From positions 1 through 21,494 of the IMG/VR virus record IMGVR_UViG_3300042305_000789: DNA of 21,494 nt; one strand, given 5' to 3'. The stretch is from a virus. The position numbers and the translations under genes are program-made. Within the stretch, counting starts at the first letter, position 1. The number at the start of each line of letters is the position of its first letter. The notes beneath the pieces are model-generated. The model was not told the origin of the DNA. It was given only the letters and a program-made list of their open reading frames with translations, and ran no database searches. Of this stretch, positions 8,686 through 18,926 are shown one piece after another.

Positions 8686-11438
8686 TACGCCGCCCCTACG
8701 GCTTCCTGCATCGCCCGGTTGACCCCGTGGCCTTCGTAGATCGCCATACGGAGCGCGTCCGCAATGGATTCGCGGGAGTCTACGATTGACCGGGAATCGA
8801 GCGCGGAGATGTTGACCGTGATCTCCCGTAGCCCGCCCAGCTTGTTCGTGTCGTAGGACCGTCCGAGCCGGTCCATGGAATAGGACATTGAGTCGGCTTC
8901 GTCGTAGTACGCATCGGTCAGACGCTGATTGATTTGCGCGTCGCGCTTTTTCTTCGGGTCGCCCAAGATCATGGCGATACCCTGGAGGCCAAGCGCCACG
9001 CCAGCGAGAATAGGCGCCGCAGGGCCGGAAACGCCCGACAGCGCGAGAATCGACCCAGCCGCGCCCGCGAGTGCCGCCGTCCCATTTAACGCGCCCTGCG
9101 CGCCGCCTGCTTTGAATTGCGTGTATGCGCCAATGGCCCCGCCTGCTACCGCTCCGGCAATGCCGACGCCACGCGCGGTTTTCGAGAGCCCGTCGCCAAG
9201 CGGAACCACTGCGCCGCCTTCGGTTGTGCCGAGACCGATGAAGCCGGGGGCGGGAGTGACCGTGGATTTCGGCGCAGCGGAGAATACCATCGGATTCGAC
9301 GCGCTGGCACCGCTGAACACGCCAGGGGCGCCAATGAGATCGCCAAGGAAGCCACTAGCCGGTCCCAGCGCGCGCATGGCGTTGAACCCGTTCGGCCCTG
9401 ATACCTGGAAGCCGCCAGTCGCCTGCCGCTCAATGGCTTCCGTATTGCGGTCGGTGGCAAGCGTGTTCTTGTCGATGGGCGTGGCGTTCGCCGGGTCCAG
9501 TAACGTTCCCTGTAGGAGCCCGCCGAGGCCCGAGGCCGCGCCGATGCGCCCGAGGGTGCCTTGGACGCGCTGGAAGGTGCCCGTAAGGGCATTCGTGCCG
9601 ACTTGGTTGAGGAGTCGGCTGCCCTGCTGGCGGAAAAAGTCTTGCGGCCGCCCGTCCTGTAGGGAGCCGACGAAATCAGAGGCGAGCCCGCGGGCTTCGT
9701 CGCGCCGCTGCCGCTGGAGGTTCAGGATTGACAGCGTGCGCTCCTCTTCGATCTGGAGACGCCGTTGGTTGAGGTCGAAGACTTCGGTGCCGTAGTCGAG
9801 TTCCTGCTGGAGCCCGGCTTTCTTCAGATCGTAAATCTTTTGGATCGCCGCCAGTTCGCCGCCCGGCCCGGTGAGCATTTCGATTTTGCGTTCCTGGAAC
9901 TGAACGAACGAGCGGGCGAAGGAGGCATTCAGTTCGCGTTCGCGCTGGTCTTTCTGCCGCTGGAGTTCGGCTGAGGTTGCCGCCCGATCCGCTCCCGGGT
10001 TGCTGGAGTCGAAGGCATTGCGGTCGGCTTGCGTGGAAACAAATTCGGGGAGGTCGGGCAGCGAAGTAGCGCGGCCACGGAGGGACGGAACGCGGCCGAC
10101 TGTGATCCCAGCGCCGATGTTGGCGTTGATGAGATCGGACGAGTTGACGACCAGCTCGGCGCCGGCACGGGCTTTTTGCAGAAACTCGATTTGCTTGTTG
10201 AGCGCCAACTGCTCCGCCGTGATACGGGAAAGTTCTTTGCTCTGCAGTTCAAACGCCGATTTGCTCAGTGAGCCGGAAGCCAGCGAGGAAGCGATACCAG
10301 CCCGCTCCTTCCCGAGTTGTTCTAAACGCGCCTTGATGCCGTCTTCGCCGCCAAGCTGGCCGCGGCGGAACCGATCGGACATCGCGGCACCGGCAGTGAG
10401 CCCACCGGTATCTAGTCCCGGCACGGATGGCGCAAGGCGTGATAGTGCCGCCCCGCCGTCGAGAGTCGGGAACATTTTCGCCAGGACTTCATTTTCGGCG
10501 TCTTGCGCGCCCTTGGAAAATGCCGATCCCGGCAGTGCGGAGGTATCGCCCGCAGCAAGGCGGGACACGCGGAGAAGTATCGGCACAATCACCGGCGCAA
10601 TCTTCTCCGCCAGCTTGCCCTTGATGATCTCCCATTGCAGATCAAATGTCCGCAATTGCTTATTGCTATCGTCCAGCGCCTTCAGCAGCCCTTCGCGCGT
10701 GCCGAATCCAAGTTGCTCGGCAAGCTGATTGGCTTCCCGATATCCAACAAGTAACGGCTGCACGTTCTTCGCCGCGTCCTCGCCGCCAAGCACCCGCGAG
10801 AGGTTCACGCGCTGCGTGGTGTCCTGGACCTTCGAGAGCGCGTCGAATGTCTCCAAGAGCACGTCATTCAACTGCCGTGTCTGCCCGGTTGACGTATAGG
10901 CGGATACGCCCAGTTGCTTCAGGAGTTGCCGCGTCTGGTCGCCCTGCCCGCCCGTGTCCTTCAGCGCAACGGACAAATCGAGCGCAGCTTCTTTCAGGTT
11001 GCGGATATCGAACCCGGTCAGGTTCGCCGCCGCCCGCAGTTTGTCCGCCTGGTTGATCGTTAACCCGGTGGACAGGGAGAGGGACTTGATTTCCAACGCG
11101 GCTTCGCCAGCGCCGCGCACGAACGCATCAAACCCGGCCGCCGCCGTCTTGACCGCGGCATATACGCCTAGCGCGGCCGTAGCGTAGCGGCCGAGGCCAG
11201 CGGCGCCGTCGTTGGTCGCCTTTGACGCGCCGCCCAGCGAGGACTCCGAGTCCTGCTTCATGCGCTTCATGGCGTCCGAATAGCGGACCTGATTCTTTAC
11301 CGCATCGTCCGCCATTTTCTTGTTGGCGCGGGCGAGTTCGTCGCCCAGTTTGTTGACGGTTGCGGACAGGCGCGCGAGTTCCGCATCGCCTCGCGCTTGG
11401 GCTTCGACGACGAGTTGAAATCGTTGAGTAGCGGCCAT
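8685..11438 (-). CDS. Tape measure protein (lambda H-like)
   Basis: 917 residues. The longest tail core gene, directly after the chaperones. It sets tail length, is ejected ahead of the DNA, and helps DNA cross the cell envelope. At the usual ~1.5 angstrom per residue it predicts a tail near 135-140 nm. Residues ~10-70 are a charged coiled coil (ATVNKLGDELARANKKM). Residues ~80-290 resemble tape measure N-domains (STGLTINQADKLRAAANLTGF, SRVLGGEDAAKNVQPLLVGY). Then follow long helices rich in Gln, Arg and Glu (RRLQIEEERTLSILNLQRQRR). Residues ~757-826 are a Gly/Ala-rich hydrophobic stretch (GAVAGGAIGAY, APILAGVALGLQGIAMILG) likely to enter the membrane. The ATG abuts the chaperone extension stop (TAAATG). 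Confidence 0.95.
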   Translation of the reverse strand: MAATQRFQLVVEAQARGDAELARLSATVNKLGDELARANKKMADDAVKNQVRYSDAMKRMKQDSESSLGGASKATNDGAAGLGRYATAALGVYAAVKTAAAGFDAFVRGAGEAALEIKSLSLSTGLTINQADKLRAAANLTGFDIRNLKEAALDLSVALKDTGGQGDQTRQLLKQLGVSAYTSTGQTRQLNDVLLETFDALSKVQDTTQRVNLSRVLGGEDAAKNVQPLLVGYREANQLAEQLGFGTREGLLKALDDSNKQLRTFDLQWEIIKGKLAEKIAPVIVPILLRVSRLAAGDTSALPGSAFSKGAQDAENEVLAKMFPTLDGGAALSRLAPSVPGLDTGGLTAGAAMSDRFRRGQLGGEDGIKARLEQLGKERAGIASSLASGSLSKSAFELQSKELSRITAEQLALNKQIEFLQKARAGAELVVNSSDLINANIGAGITVGRVPSLRGRATSLPDLPEFVSTQADRNAFDSSNPGADRAATSAELQRQKDQRERELNASFARSFVQFQERKIEMLTGPGGELAAIQKIYDLKKAGLQQELDYGTEVFDLNQRRLQIEEERTLSILNLQRQRRDEARGLASDFVGSLQDGRPQDFFRQQGSRLLNQVGTNALTGTFQRVQGTLGRIGAASGLGGLLQGTLLDPANATPIDKNTLATDRNTEAIERQATGGFQVSGPNGFNAMRALGPASGFLGDLIGAPGVFSGASASNPMVFSAAPKSTVTPAPGFIGLGTTEGGAVVPLGDGLSKTARGVGIAGAVAGGAIGAYTQFKAGGAQGALNGTAALAGAAGSILALSGVSGPAAPILAGVALGLQGIAMILGDPKKKRDAQINQRLTDAYYDEADSMSYSMDRLGRSYDTNKLGGLREITVNISALDSRSIVDSRESIADALRMAIYEGHGVNRAMQEAVGAA

Positions 11439-14505: not shown

Positions 14506-14813
14506 AACGGATTCGTAACGGCCAGCTTCAGTAGCCGCCCGCCGCCAGCGTCTTTTTCGACGTCGGCAACGCGGTAGGTGACACTATCCAGGACGATGTG
14601 ATCGCCTTTGATTGGCTCGCCTTCGGTGAAGGAAGTGAGCGGCGCCCAGGCGGTTTGATAGACGCGCTGGGATTGCTGTACCTGCTCGCCGGTGTCGAAA
14701 ACGAGGGTTATCGTGTACGAGGCACCGGCGCGCGGGTAGTAAGTGGCCTCTTCCCCAAACACGGCGAGGAGAGGCACCGTGGCAGTATCAAAAAGGCCAC
14801 TGAAGGTGGACAT
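14502..14813 (-). CDS. Head-tail attachment protein, lambda gpFII-like
   Basis: 103 residues, near the 117 of lambda gpFII. Such proteins form a ring below gpW on the portal and provide the surface to which the finished tail docks. The composition is beta-rich: MSTFSGLFDTATVPLLAVFGEEATYYP at the start, then SYTITLVFDTGEQVQ, DHIVLDSVTYRVADVEKDAGG and LLKLAVTNPL, in keeping with the FII fold (an N-terminal segment, then a barrel with a DSVxYRVxxVE strand). It starts 6 nt after the decoration gene. Its TGA overlaps the ATG of the next small gene. The assignment rests on pattern, size and position. Confidence 0.82.
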   Translation of the reverse strand: MSTFSGLFDTATVPLLAVFGEEATYYPRAGASYTITLVFDTGEQVQQSQRVYQTAWAPLTSFTEGEPIKGDHIVLDSVTYRVADVEKDAGGGRLLKLAVTNPL

Positions 14814-14819
14814 GGCTGG

Positions 14820-15365
14820 TTAGTATTCGGCGACCACGAGGAACTTCTTCGAGGCCGTGACGGTCACGACCACGTTCGTGCTGGTGTGGCTGCCATAGGT
14901 GACGTTGACGCTGCCGGCGGTCGCCGGGGTCAGGTCGGTGTAGGTAACGAACACGCGCGACGGAACGAACCCGAGGCCGTGGGCCACGTTCTGCGCGCTG
15001 CCCGTGCCGGTCTGCTCGGAGGAAACAAACTTCAGCGTGAGCGGCCCACCATACAGCTTGACGCGGACGGTGGTATCGCCGGAAACGGCGGCCCGCGTGC
15101 AGACGCCAACTTCGCAATTGCCGGCGGCCGTGGTCGTCAGGTACTTGTTCGTGTTGTCCCAGTACACCGCGTCGCCCACCGAAATCGCGCCGGTGGTTTT
15201 GGCGATGTCGAACACGCCTTCGGTTTTGAATTGGCCAACGGCTCCGGAAGTGGTATCGGACACCGCAACGCCGAAAATCTTGCCCACGCGCGCCGCCGCA
15301 CCGGCGACAACGGTATAGGGGGCGGTAAGCGCGAGAGAGTCTCCCGCCTGTACGAAATTATCCAT
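14820..15365 (-). CDS. Capsid decoration protein (DUF2190-like) with C-terminal extension
   Basis: 181 residues. Residues 1-107 match the pattern of DUF2190 proteins, found next to capsid genes in place of lambda gpD: a beta-rich small domain with AAARVGKIFGVAVSD, GQFKTEGVFDIAK and ISVGDAVYWDNTNK. They bind the outside of the shell and stabilise it. Residues ~110-181 form a second, Thr/Val-rich domain (SSEQTGTGSAQNVAHGLG, SRVFVTYTD, SHTSTNVVVTVTASKKFL) not part of the minimal DUF2190 fold as I know it. It resembles short beta modules of tail fibres and may be exposed on the head surface. GAGGG lies 7 nt before the ATG. The gene follows the capsid gene after a 62-nt gap with a hairpin. Confidence 0.82.
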   Translation of the reverse strand: MDNFVQAGDSLALTAPYTVVAGAAARVGKIFGVAVSDTTSGAVGQFKTEGVFDIAKTTGAISVGDAVYWDNTNKYLTTTAAGNCEVGVCTRAAVSGDTTVRVKLYGGPLTLKFVSSEQTGTGSAQNVAHGLGFVPSRVFVTYTDLTPATAGSVNVTYGSHTSTNVVVTVTASKKFLVVAEY

Positions 15366-15379
15366 GGTTTTACCCTCGT

Positions 15380-15399
15380 GGGGCGGCCCTCGCCGCCCC
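15380..15399 (-). other. Perfect GC hairpin between capsid and decoration genes
   Basis: An inverted repeat of GGGGCGGC and GCCGCCCC (8 bp, perfect) around a 4-nt loop lies in the only sizeable intergenic gap, 28 nt after the capsid stop. On the minus strand the following bases are ACGAGGGTAAAACC and then the ATG of the decoration gene, so no U-run follows and it does not look like an intrinsic terminator. It ends 2 nt before the GAGGG ribosome binding site. It may stabilise or mark the 3' end of a processed capsid mRNA, or tune decoration protein translation. Confidence 0.6.
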
Positions 15400-15427
15400 T
15401 AGTTGTTTGGTTGCCTTGTTCCGCCGA

Positions 15428-16747
15428 TTAAACGCCGCTGGAGTAGTAGAGGCCCTTCCAGCCGACGGCTTTGGCCGCGAAGTCGAGAAAGACGTTGATG
15501 CGAACGCCAAGAATGTCGCCAGCGTTTTCGACGCGGTAGAACTGCGGGCCGGGCGCGCCCGCCAGGTTGGCGTATTCGACATCGCCCGTTGCGGCGGCGC
15601 CGTACCATTTGGCAGTGTCGGTGAGTTCGGCATCGGACACGACTTCCAGCATTCCTGCGAACCAGTTCTGGTCGGAAATCTTGACAGAAGGCCCGGTTTC
15701 ACGCATGGCAGTGACAGCCGTCATGCGCTTGGCGGGCGGGACGATGAGGTATTTCGGCATCAGGTTCAACGGGCTTACCCCGTCGATATCCTTCTGCGTG
15801 GCCATCGCCACAAACATGGAGTCCAGACCGGTGTTACCGATGGCGCCGGTGCCGACGTTTTCATGATCGGCATGGAACAGCGTCACGCCGTCATTCATCG
15901 CCGCGTTCGCCGTTAGGATGGCGTACACGGTCTTGTTTTCCAAGCGCGCGCACTGCTCGCCCATCTTCGCGCTGATGTCATTGAAGGCACCGAGGTCGTC
16001 GTTGATGAGCATTTGGCGCGTGAAGCTGATGCCGCGCGCGTAGGTCGCCAGCGCGTAGGATTCGCGCTCTTCGCCCATTGTGCCCAGCGTGACTTCTCCG
16101 CCTTCGGGGACTTCCAGAAGCACGGGGGCCGCACCACTGCGAATCCGGCGCATCGTCTTGAAGTCGTTCGCCACACTCGCGCGAGACCAGGTTTTGTAGG
16201 TCACGGGCGCAGTGTCGTAGGCGGTCAGCAGCACTTTGCGCAGCCCGTTTTCCAGGATGTACGGGAAGTCGCTGGTGGAGTGGAACGCTTGGATACAGAA
16301 GTCGGTTTCGTTCATACCGCGCGTGTTGACGCCCGCGCGCGCCAGCACTTCTTCGGCCAGCCGGCGAACGCCCATGCCCCGGAAGTCGTTGGCGGCTTCC
16401 ACTTGATACTTCGACGGGTCCACGCGGTTCAACAGCGCTGAGACGCCCAAGGCGCGCCGCGTGTCGCGCTCATCGCGGGAGATCGTGGCGGCGGTGTGGC
16501 CGACGCGAGTATCGGTAGCCATATCGGCGGCGATCTTCGCCTCGATCACGGCATCTTTGAATGCCTCGACCGTCTGTCCGCTAGAGATAGCGGAGTTGAT
16601 GGCCGTAGCGGGCATCTTGGCGAGCGCGCCAATACGGGAGATTTCGCTGGTGCGGGTCCGTTCGGCGGCCATGGCGGCGGCGGCAATAGCCTCGGCGTTA
16701 ATAGCCGGGTTCTGCCCCGTGGATTCGACAGGGTTCGGATTGGGCAT
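15428..16747 (-). CDS. Nested in-frame scaffold/major capsid gene (probable internal start)
   Basis: An internal ATG at 16747 (M240 of the protease-capsid fusion) is preceded by AAGGAGG with 5 nt spacing, the strongest Shine-Dalgarno sequence seen at any start in the window. Initiation here would give a 439-residue protein beginning MPNPNPVES, made of the helical scaffold-like segment and the capsid domain but no protease. Lambda uses the same arrangement, with Nu3 nested in frame at the 3' end of protease gene C, to make the scaffold in excess of the protease. Here the nested product would also carry the shell subunit, needed in hundreds of copies against few protease copies. Independent translation is an inference from the ribosome binding site. 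Confidence 0.7.
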   Translation of the reverse strand: MPNPNPVESTGQNPAINAEAIAAAAMAAERTRTSEISRIGALAKMPATAINSAISSGQTVEAFKDAVIEAKIAADMATDTRVGHTAATISRDERDTRRALGVSALLNRVDPSKYQVEAANDFRGMGVRRLAEEVLARAGVNTRGMNETDFCIQAFHSTSDFPYILENGLRKVLLTAYDTAPVTYKTWSRASVANDFKTMRRIRSGAAPVLLEVPEGGEVTLGTMGEERESYALATYARGISFTRQMLINDDLGAFNDISAKMGEQCARLENKTVYAILTANAAMNDGVTLFHADHENVGTGAIGNTGLDSMFVAMATQKDIDGVSPLNLMPKYLIVPPAKRMTAVTAMRETGPSVKISDQNWFAGMLEVVSDAELTDTAKWYGAAATGDVEYANLAGAPGPQFYRVENAGDILGVRINVFLDFAAKAVGWKGLYYSSGV

Positions 16748-17464
16748 ATAGCCCTCCTTGTGTGAATTGTCATCAGGGGCAGAGCCCTGGACTTTGTTGG
16801 GCGGTGCAACTTCCACCGCATTCGCCACCGGCCCAACCGCGCACAATGCAGCGGGGGCGTTACGGTAGGCGGTCAAATTCCATTCGTTTTTCGCGGCCGT
16901 GGTTTCCACGATCCGGTCAGCTAGACCAGCATCTACGGCTTCCTGTGCGGAAAACCACGTTTCCGCGTCCATCCACGCGCGGACGGTCGCCTCGTCTTTG
17001 CCGGTTCGGCGCATGTAGTCGGCCGTCAGTGAATCGGCGTACTTACTGAGAACTTCCGCAACGGCCATGTGATCGGAAGCGTTGCCGAAGGCCAGAGCGT
17101 GCGGATTGTGGACCATCACAAACGCGCCCGCCGTAATCTCGATTTCGTCTGCCGCCAGCATAATCACGGACGCGGCCGATGCGGCCAGCCCATCAATATG
17201 AGCAACCACTCGCGCCGGGTGTTGCGCAATGGCCGTAGACATTGCCCGCGCGGCGTCAACCTCCCCGCCTGGGGAGTTGATACGCAAATGAATCAATGAC
17301 GCCTTCAGTGATTTCAAATCCTTGGCAAATTGAGACGCCTGAATTCCCCACATCCCACCAATCGCGTCGTAGACAAACACTTCGGCGGCATCTTCCGCCT
17401 TCGCGTTGATCTCGTAACGGCGCGGCTTTTGTTCGTTGTCGGCGAAGAGTTTATTGAGGCTCAT
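15428..17464 (-). CDS. Prohead protease / major capsid protein fusion
   Basis: 678 residues from the ATG at 17464. A longer reading from a TTG at 17512 would lie wholly in portal sequence and is less likely. Residues ~15-190 are a ClpP-like serine protease: INSPGGEVDAARA, then DGLAASAAS with the probable nucleophile S96, and VMVHNP with the probable H119. After a Pro/Asn-rich linker (about 210-255), residues ~255-340 are Ala-rich and helical and could act as a scaffold (delta) domain. Residues ~350-678 are a Mu gpT-like, HK97-fold capsid protein (NDFRGMGVRRLAEEVLARAGV, GEERESYALATYARGISFTRQ, LFHADHENVG). Such protease/capsid fusions are known in tailed phages. The protease would cut the scaffold and release the mature shell subunit. 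Confidence 0.95.
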   Translation of the reverse strand: MSLNKLFADNEQKPRRYEINAKAEDAAEVFVYDAIGGMWGIQASQFAKDLKSLKASLIHLRINSPGGEVDAARAMSTAIAQHPARVVAHIDGLAASAASVIMLAADEIEITAGAFVMVHNPHALAFGNASDHMAVAEVLSKYADSLTADYMRRTGKDEATVRAWMDAETWFSAQEAVDAGLADRIVETTAAKNEWNLTAYRNAPAALCAVGPVANAVEVAPPNKVQGSAPDDNSHKEGYMPNPNPVESTGQNPAINAEAIAAAAMAAERTRTSEISRIGALAKMPATAINSAISSGQTVEAFKDAVIEAKIAADMATDTRVGHTAATISRDERDTRRALGVSALLNRVDPSKYQVEAANDFRGMGVRRLAEEVLARAGVNTRGMNETDFCIQAFHSTSDFPYILENGLRKVLLTAYDTAPVTYKTWSRASVANDFKTMRRIRSGAAPVLLEVPEGGEVTLGTMGEERESYALATYARGISFTRQMLINDDLGAFNDISAKMGEQCARLENKTVYAILTANAAMNDGVTLFHADHENVGTGAIGNTGLDSMFVAMATQKDIDGVSPLNLMPKYLIVPPAKRMTAVTAMRETGPSVKISDQNWFAGMLEVVSDAELTDTAKWYGAAATGDVEYANLAGAPGPQFYRVENAGDILGVRINVFLDFAAKAVGWKGLYYSSGV
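16753..16759 (-). promoter_or_regulatory. Strong internal Shine-Dalgarno sequence AAGGAGG
   Basis: On the minus strand AAGGAGG is followed by GCTAT and then ATG (16747-16745), an optimal spacing. In the fusion frame it encodes the K-E-G of the linker, so it is compatible with both readings. The starts I examined for the other genes have at most partial sites such as GAGG, GGAAG or AGGGG, and several have none. Confidence 0.75.
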
Positions 17465-18926
17465 CAGGTACCTGCTCTTGCGGGTCTGCCGCGTTGCTTT
17501 CTGCGATGGCAAGTTGACCGTTGAAAAAATCCACTCCGGCCCCTTGTAATCCCTCGGAGTATTCGGAGATTTCCGCCAACTGCTGCGCTGGGTTATTCCC
17601 CGCGCCTGCCACGACTTGCGGCCAGGTCTTTTTGCCGATCTGGAGGTCTACTTGATCGGCTTTCGATTCCGACAGCCGATCTAAAAGCTCGAACGCGGGC
17701 GGGCTCCATTGGTGCGAGGTGTCAGATGCCGGCCCATCTAACATCAGTAGGTATTCCAAGAACTTCTGCGCCGCCCATTCGCACATTTGCGGGATAAACC
17801 ACGCCCATTGGTGGGACTCGACCGCGCGCTTGAACGCTACTGCGCCCATGCGGCTACTGCTGTAATTGGACTTCGAATAGTTCCCGGTCAGTAACTCGAA
17901 CGGGATTCCAATGCCTGCCGCAAAGTCTCGCTGGCGGCTCGTCTTATAATCTTCGTATCCGCCAGCGTATGCCGGCTGATTGAATTTCACGTCTTCGCCA
18001 GGCCGCAATTTAAGCATCATGCCAGGCTCAAACGTCGATACCGGGTTACCGTTGGCGTCGGCGACTTCGGTGGTGAACTGGAATTCGTCGCCTTCAGGCG
18101 AGGTCACTGCGGCGGCAATACACGCCTCAGTGCGCTTGCGGATAATCTCGGCTTCTTCCCAATCCGCGGTGTCTTTTGCGGGGAGGGTTGACGGCGCCAA
18201 CCGGGGGACGATCCGAACCTGCCCCGGCCGTTTCGGGCGCCCAATATGGGACACCTCGGAGGCGGGCACGCGATGCGACATCGTGCTGATAGAGCCGGGC
18301 AAGCCGGATGCCGCGCTATCGCCGGGGTGACGGTCGAATAGCCAATACGCCACGCGCTTTCCGACTCCGTTGAATTCGACGCCCTGGATGATGTAGCCGC
18401 TCGCCAGCGTGGCCGTTTTGAGTGTGTCCAGGTAGTCGGCTTCCAGAACTTGAATCTGCACCGGAGGCCAGACGCCATCAGAACGGCGACGGGGGCGGGA
18501 TCGGAGAAGGACTTCGCCGGTTTCAAATTCTGCGTCACACGCCTGGGCTTGAATCGCCTCGAAACCAGGCAGGCCATCGGCGGAGCACGTCTTAACCCAT
18601 GCGTCCCACTTCGCCTGCACCGTGGCGTCATTCCACTGGCAAAGGATGCCTGTCCCGACTACTGAATCGGTCCATTTCGTTTGACCGCTACCCGCCAGCG
18701 GGTTATTGCGAATGAGGTCGCGCGATCGGTCGCGGAGTGCCACCAGCCCGCCCGATGTTTCAGCGTTGGCCGATGCTCCACTCGTTGTCCATCCGGCCGT
18801 GCGGCGGCCGTCTTTCGCGCCTTCATAAGATGCCTTCGGGTTCAGCGCGGCGCGGGCGCGACTCCGCCGAATCCCGGCAGCCGGGTCGAAGAACGCAACG
18901 ACTTTATCAACGATGTTTAGGCTCAT
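17451..18926 (-). CDS. Portal protein, lambda gpB family
   Basis: 491 residues, somewhat shorter than lambda gpB (533). The portal is the dodecameric ring at one head vertex through which DNA enters and leaves and on which the connector assembles. Family features include the early SYEGAKDGRRTAGW segment, LRDRSRDLIRNNPLAGS (about 63-80), GTGILCQWN, the acidic ACDAEFETGEVLLR segment (about 128-141), VLEADYLD, and a C-terminal FELLTGNYSKSNYSSSRMG region. Lambda gpB is trimmed by the head protease in its N terminus. Whether that happens here is unknown. The gene starts in an ATGA overlap with gpW and ends 14 nt inside the following protease gene. Confidence 0.96.
   Translation of the reverse strand: MSLNIVDKVVAFFDPAAGIRRSRARAALNPKASYEGAKDGRRTAGWTTSGASANAETSGGLVALRDRSRDLIRNNPLAGSGQTKWTDSVVGTGILCQWNDATVQAKWDAWVKTCSADGLPGFEAIQAQACDAEFETGEVLLRSRPRRRSDGVWPPVQIQVLEADYLDTLKTATLASGYIIQGVEFNGVGKRVAYWLFDRHPGDSAASGLPGSISTMSHRVPASEVSHIGRPKRPGQVRIVPRLAPSTLPAKDTADWEEAEIIRKRTEACIAAAVTSPEGDEFQFTTEVADANGNPVSTFEPGMMLKLRPGEDVKFNQPAYAGGYEDYKTSRQRDFAAGIGIPFELLTGNYSKSNYSSSRMGAVAFKRAVESHQWAWFIPQMCEWAAQKFLEYLLMLDGPASDTSHQWSPPAFELLDRLSESKADQVDLQIGKKTWPQVVAGAGNNPAQQLAEISEYSEGLQGAGVDFFNGQLAIAESNAADPQEQVPDEPQ

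Follow-up and report, generated by a model that had tools for sequence, protein, structure and literature searches.

A conserved candidate start for a nested scaffold-capsid protein in phage protease-capsid fusion genes

The lambda C/Nu3 and Mu I/Z genes nest a scaffold within a protease gene, and an in-frame internal start yields the scaffold in excess. In HK97, the gp4 protease and gp5, with its delta domain, are encoded by separate genes, and the shell is translated from its own start. The Gifsy-2 capsid gene is reportedly tripartite, with protease, scaffold and capsid in one gene. The same is described for gp5 of MD8, which in the main text of the MD8 paper holds all three proteins in one gene (PMC8508860). 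One-gene protease-scaffold-capsid proteins and nested scaffold starts are thus both already known. Our literature search, with the Gifsy-2 capsid text outside its reach, found no internal start releasing the shell protein in such fusions, and the words 'internal' and 'fusion' are absent from the main text of the MD8 paper (PMC8508860).

The fusion gene analyzed here shares features with each of these systems. Like Gifsy-2 and MD8, it has a ClpP-type protease, a central scaffold-like region and a shell protein in one frame. Like lambda C/Nu3 and Mu I/Z, it has an in-frame internal start with its own Shine-Dalgarno (SD) sequence at the protease-scaffold junction. In lambda and Mu, however, the nested product stops short of a separate shell gene, whereas here the nested frame is not confined to the scaffold and continues through the capsid domain, as the original prediction had stated. 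As in HK97, the scaffold is the N-terminal part of the shell protein, but HK97 uses separate genes and this locus a single frame with a nested start. The original prediction had named lambda C/Nu3 as the known parallel; this holds for the nested scaffold start and has to be amended to include the one-gene capsids of Gifsy-2 and MD8.

The window, that is, the whole stretch of DNA analyzed, is the 21,494-base virus contig IMGVR_UViG_3300042305_000789, which carries tailed-phage late genes on the minus strand, comprising terminase, lambda-type portal, fusion gene, cement protein and tail genes. The 678-codon fusion gene, like each of its features located below, is on the minus strand (15428-17464), with its ATG at 17464 and a stop codon that ends at 15428. 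Its first 14 nt are shared with the end of the portal gene, and a weak SD-like stretch, AGCAGG (17471-17476), precedes the ATG. Long open frames of 277, 288 and 242 aa lie on the plus strand opposite the late genes (14598-15431, 8929-9795 and 10000-10728) and are likely a by-product of codon usage.

This frame had been predicted to join a ClpP-type prohead protease to a gpT-like shell protein. The fusion is confirmed by Pfam, which places CLP_protease (PF00574) at residues 49-188 (1e-26), and by NF045542, a ClpP-related head maturation protease family, which matches residues 27-185 with 171.4 bits against a cut-off of 120. For the shell, the capsid domain stands, but its best Pfam match is Phage_capsid_4 (PF25209; residues 390-673, 15446-16297), at 3.9e-44 and 152.4 bits against a 27-bit cut-off, and the gpT family (PF10124) matches more weakly (1e-6). 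A profile built from 12 fusions does match the solved gpT-like chains 8rkc and 8rkx, which we take to be the shell of phage JBD30. The whole protein scores 426 bits over residues 27-676 with NF045540, the family of ClpP-like prohead protease/major capsid protein fusions, which indicates homology though the score is below the curated 475-bit cut-off; the Gifsy-2 and MD8 proteins match this family at 949.6 and 1012.3 bits. A second family of prohead protease/major capsid protein fusions, NF045541, gives 418.5 bits, under its 525-bit cut-off, and its best stretch runs from residue 232 on, while the N-terminal half is ClpP-like.

An AlphaFold model based on 40 sequences (mean pLDDT 82.0, pTM 0.51) contains a confident protease (residues 16-208, 16841-17419), a linker predicted to be disordered at residues 211-255 (pLDDT under 50; 16700-16834), helices at 257-281, 286-294, 299-317 and 332-348, and the capsid domain. 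We assign a putative delta-like scaffold role to the helical region (residues 257-348, 16421-16696). All 50 Foldseek matches listed are ClpP entries (TMt 0.72-0.86 for the protease), so that the search is uninformative on the capsid fold. Ser96 and His119 presumably form the ClpP catalytic pair, with what looks like Glu168 in place of Asp as the third residue. In an alignment of 12 sequences, S78-like members among them, E168 does not vary and H119 hardly does. The codons for Ser96, His119 and Glu168 are at 17177-17179, 17108-17110 and 16961-16963.

The candidate internal start consists of AAGGAGG (16753-16759), the five-nucleotide spacer GCTAT and the in-frame ATG of M240 (16745-16747), and would open a 439-codon frame plus stop (15428-16747) whose product begins MPNPNP. 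Both the well-spaced SD at the domain boundary and the nested 439-residue frame are present as predicted. M240 sits in the low-confidence linker just ahead of the scaffold helices, and, on this model, the nested product would thus open with a short flexible tail followed by scaffold. Calculated SD:anti-SD pairing is stronger at M240 (-11.9 kcal/mol) than at the full-length start (-6.4 kcal/mol). An in-frame start as strong appeared in 7 of 300 codon-order shuffles, and an equal or stronger SD at M240 in 168 of 1000 synonymous shuffles with the protein held fixed (16.8%). On these figures, the single gene is no more than suggestive, and the weight of the argument rests on its relatives.

The alternative that survives best is that only the full-length fusion is made, that the protease excises itself to leave protease and shell at 1:1, and that a charged linker rich in lysine, glutamate and glycine gives rise to the SD-like stretch incidentally. 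We consider this unlikely. In its favor, the linker is predicted to be disordered and could be cut, and in the relatives described next the frame nearly always stays intact through the junction. A capsid-domain profile search over 429 loci, fetched mostly by fusion-protein queries, found 356 capsid-bearing ORFs, 345 of them fused (some contigs were retrieved more than once, and 307 ORFs differ in their last part). The 11 capsid ORFs not counted as fused, several of which start at a contig end, were dropped from all counts. L189 and L348 resemble split genes and appear to be damaged copies or misjoined sequence, and the Gifsy-2-like loci L359-L361 are frameshifted upstream.

We scored a site where an in-frame ATG had a four-base SD core 4-10 nt upstream, in a linker window 110-180 residues before the capsid domain. 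Among 81 fusions less than 70% identical to one another, 72 have such a site; windows of the same width elsewhere gave 4-11 (71-81 genes long enough). Synonymous shuffling of the 81 genes, 100 times, gave a mean of 47.8 (sd 3.0, maximum 57), and this codon choice, which favors an SD beyond what the peptide demands, argues against an SD that is only a by-product of the linker. So does retention of the methionine at the correct spacing: 75 of 138 ATGs in the linker window bear an SD, compared with 135 of 1580 elsewhere in these genes. The site is found in 133 of 142 fusions at less than 90% identity and in 21 of 28 at less than 50%, the latter by a small margin over shuffles (mean 15.6, maximum 20); control windows in this last set gave 1-7 of 22-28, except for the one holding the full-length starts, with 10 of 19. 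By protease type, it occurs in 45 of 51 ClpP-type, 27 of 29 S78-like and 0 of 1 other fusions. Two of the nine misses have a site just outside the linker window and one has a GTG. Gifsy-2, Fels-1, MD8 and Rhodobacter phage RcKvothe all carry an ATG with SD within it.

The bounds of this window were chosen after an initial look at the same genes, and a second set was therefore drawn. Searches with PF25209 covered 398, 247 and 251 genomes, with matches in 63, 18 and 63 and at most 30 loci taken per search; six more genomes and six named phages were added. Among 65 fusions, 32 were new at 70% identity. With the first window unchanged, 17 of 32 have the site (shuffle mean 10.0, maximum 14), and same-width controls gave 0-7 of 29-32, apart from the next window upstream (-250 to -180), with 13 of 32, into which longer scaffolds shift the site. 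In ten of the 15 misses, an ATG with SD lies 184-229 residues ahead of the capsid domain; this prompted a wider, post hoc window, which captures 28 of 32, against 15.9 (sd 1.8) in shuffles. The mRNA at the site is, on average, more weakly folded (-6.1 versus -11.8 kcal/mol; 135 genes, the second set with duplicates), in a comparison that SD-rich stretches bias toward weak folding. Folding at the window's own site is not weak, at -10.2 kcal/mol versus -6.8 at the full-length start. Odd frames, such as the 505-aa frame of L455, also occur in the second set.

Lack of conservation across homologous fusions had been named in advance as evidence against an internal start. In the combined 113 fusions (less than 70% identity), the ATG and SD are conserved in 89 with the first window and in 103 with the wide one. 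Wide-window shuffles of the 113 genes gave 69.8 (sd 3.7, maximum 79), downstream controls gave 20/113, 11/113 and 17/110, and 69 of 111 genes have their strongest in-frame ATG inside the wide window (21.6 expected; two further genes had no ATG there); these wide counts and ranks are somewhat inflated, since the wide window spans a protease motif, ETWM, that is SD-like in some ClpP-type genes. In the ClpP-type fusions L089, L092, L136 and L469, SD-like codons precede the methionine of this motif. They are probably a coding by-product, and a second internal start within the protease is possible. The ten genes with no ATG and SD core even in the wide window fit the production of full-length fusion alone; among them, L210, L591 and L601 have a GTG with an SD core and L103 a TTG, and in L100, L191, L583 and L592 we found no ATG, GTG or TTG start with an SD core.

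The comparison indicates that selection acts on nucleotides at the site rather than on a peptide. The codon phase of the SD GG across 72 genes is distributed 49, 21 and 2, so that differing peptides (lysine-glutamate, lysine-glycine and others) encode the same signal, and the residues at the site vary accordingly (KEGYM, KEVTM, KGKTM, GGNLM, RGTIM). These varied phases and peptides rule out conservation through a common protein motif, and the two main phases also count against an SD dictated by linker composition. The fusions L005, L007 and L008, which are 89, 72 and 44% identical to the window protein overall, all keep an SD and ATG at the junction. In L005, insertions and deletions flank the site on both sides, and AAGGAGG and the ATG are retained.

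Relatives in which protease and capsid are separate genes bear on the remaining alternatives. A homologous scaffold-capsid module occurs in Faecalibacterium phage FP_Epona and Dulem virus 34 (337.3 and 343.8 bits with NF045541, below its cut-off). Ahead of it lies a protease with a match to the N-terminal part of NF045541; unlike the single frame of the window, protease and module are two separate genes. Among 80 Epona-like loci, we found 70 uncut, unfused capsid ORFs, six cut at a contig end and four fused. An SD core with its ATG stands 156-197 residues ahead of the capsid domain in 69 of these 70 uncut ORFs, which encode scaffold-capsid separately. The site equivalent to M240 thus starts a separate gene, which argues against production of the full-length fusion only. 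In L519, L517 and L524, the stop of the protease gene and the ATG of the capsid gene share bases in an ATGA; the stop lies inside the SD in L467 and just after it in L474. In the four fused members (L514, L531, L539 and L542), the SD and ATG are kept in frame. L514 is 84% identical over about 500 aa to the split L519/L520; its frames are joined through a small length change near the SD, with SD and ATG in place, and L531, L539 and L542 share this fused layout.

The L514 case fits the idea that fusions arose recently from two genes by stop loss and that the internal start is a relic that has yet to decay. Decay would be expected under such a history, whereas the site persists in three quarters of fusions less than 50% identical and stands behind ClpP-type and S78-like proteases alike. 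The relic account may explain the origin of the fused arrangement, not the maintenance of the site, and we regard it as very unlikely. A single fused case such as L514 could also be a sequencing frameshift or base error in one metagenome contig. As a general source of fusion, sequencing frameshifts are ruled out by the number of fused ORFs in the first set, from isolates and metagenomes. The record of L098 (Pseudomonas phage PAN70) marks the fusion gene as broken by a homopolymer deletion, perhaps also a sequencing matter. That the mid-gene SD is a translational pause aiding protease folding before scaffold and capsid are made, and no start at all, is highly improbable: pausing at internal SD-like stretches has been proposed and this one lies at a predicted domain boundary, but an in-frame ATG is kept alongside at start spacing far more often than elsewhere, and the equivalent SD-ATG pair opens a separate gene in the split clade.

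A first scan for the nearest relatives kept 80 of 379 loci. In 71 of these, the protease is a separate ORF (226-331 aa, stop to stop), and at the three stand-alone loci checked, the next gene encodes an HK97-type capsid (PF05065). Seven loci (L002-L008) belong to fusions, of which two are truncated at a contig end. The remaining two, L062 and L069, encode ClpP-type protease-scaffold-like ORFs of 379 aa, each with AAAGGAG-ATG inside, at ORF residue 240; this is seemingly a lambda C/Nu3-like layout built on a ClpP-type protease. The window protease is 62-81% identical to those of the four next-nearest fusions (L005, L007, L087 and L008) and 41-55% identical to those of the stand-alone and protease-scaffold loci. 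Between the window and L005, the protease part is 81% and the scaffold-capsid part 94% identical, which suggests a likely recombination joint inside the gene.

NF045540 fusions carry a ClpP-like protease and NF045541 fusions an S78/HK97-like protease, and both types are found upstream of the same scaffold-capsid module; the ClpP-type and S78-like folds are unrelated. We assigned the S78-like label with a profile of four fusions plus two split proteases, and by Pfam S78 is weak, with one of five NF045541 proteins scanned passing the cut-off. In a FastTree phylogeny of 109 capsid domains, the window falls in a group labelled 99 with L111, L112 and L191. L111 and L112 pass NF045541 (541 and 534 bits), whereas the window protease is ClpP-type, and similarity to the window begins at residue 267 with L111 and 256 with L191, just past M240. 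Protease-type and split/fused labels change 17 times on this tree, versus 53.5 times for shuffled labels; it is a quick tree with many weak forks. A differing N-terminal part is found in capsid fusions L574-L601, from the phylum of an Anaerolineales genome, and in L552. It matches neither protease profile, and the four checked have no Pfam protease; it may represent a third type of protease ahead of the shared module. With this third label, 16 of 21 de-duplicated genes have an ATG and SD in the wide window. L464, from the archaeal tailed virus Methanoculleus virus L4768, is a separate 395-aa capsid gene that bears the name Clp protease-like. Only some 67 residues lie ahead of its capsid domain, and most of the scaffold region seems to be missing.

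Returning to the window, we think it very likely, from the sequence comparisons above, that the 678-codon frame comprises two overlapping in-frame cistrons, of which the nested one would give an excess of shell over tethered protease. What follows on start use, product ratio, assembly and cleavage is our inference. Ribosomes starting at 17464, with its weak SD, would make a minor protease-scaffold-capsid precursor, and ribosomes starting at 16747, with its strong SD, would yield an excess of the 439-residue scaffold-capsid protein. Both products would co-assemble via their common capsid domain, and a minority of tethered protease domains would thereby enter the prohead. These proteases would then cut away linker and scaffold. 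HK97 and lambda proteases cleave in trans.

The same logic probably extends across the capsid family, whether the N-terminal part is ClpP-type, S78-like or of the third type. The annotated fusion would be the minor product and the main shell gene a nested cistron with its own ribosome-binding site; this cistron would be a portable module, upstream of which proteases are swapped and which flips between separate and nested states through small frame changes at the junction. If true, internal initiation would explain how phages with one-gene capsids escape making protease and shell 1:1. The annotated N-terminus of their main capsid protein would be off by about 200 residues throughout a family that includes Gifsy-2, Fels-1, MD8 and RcKvothe, and a translation signal would mark the point where one protease module is swapped for another.
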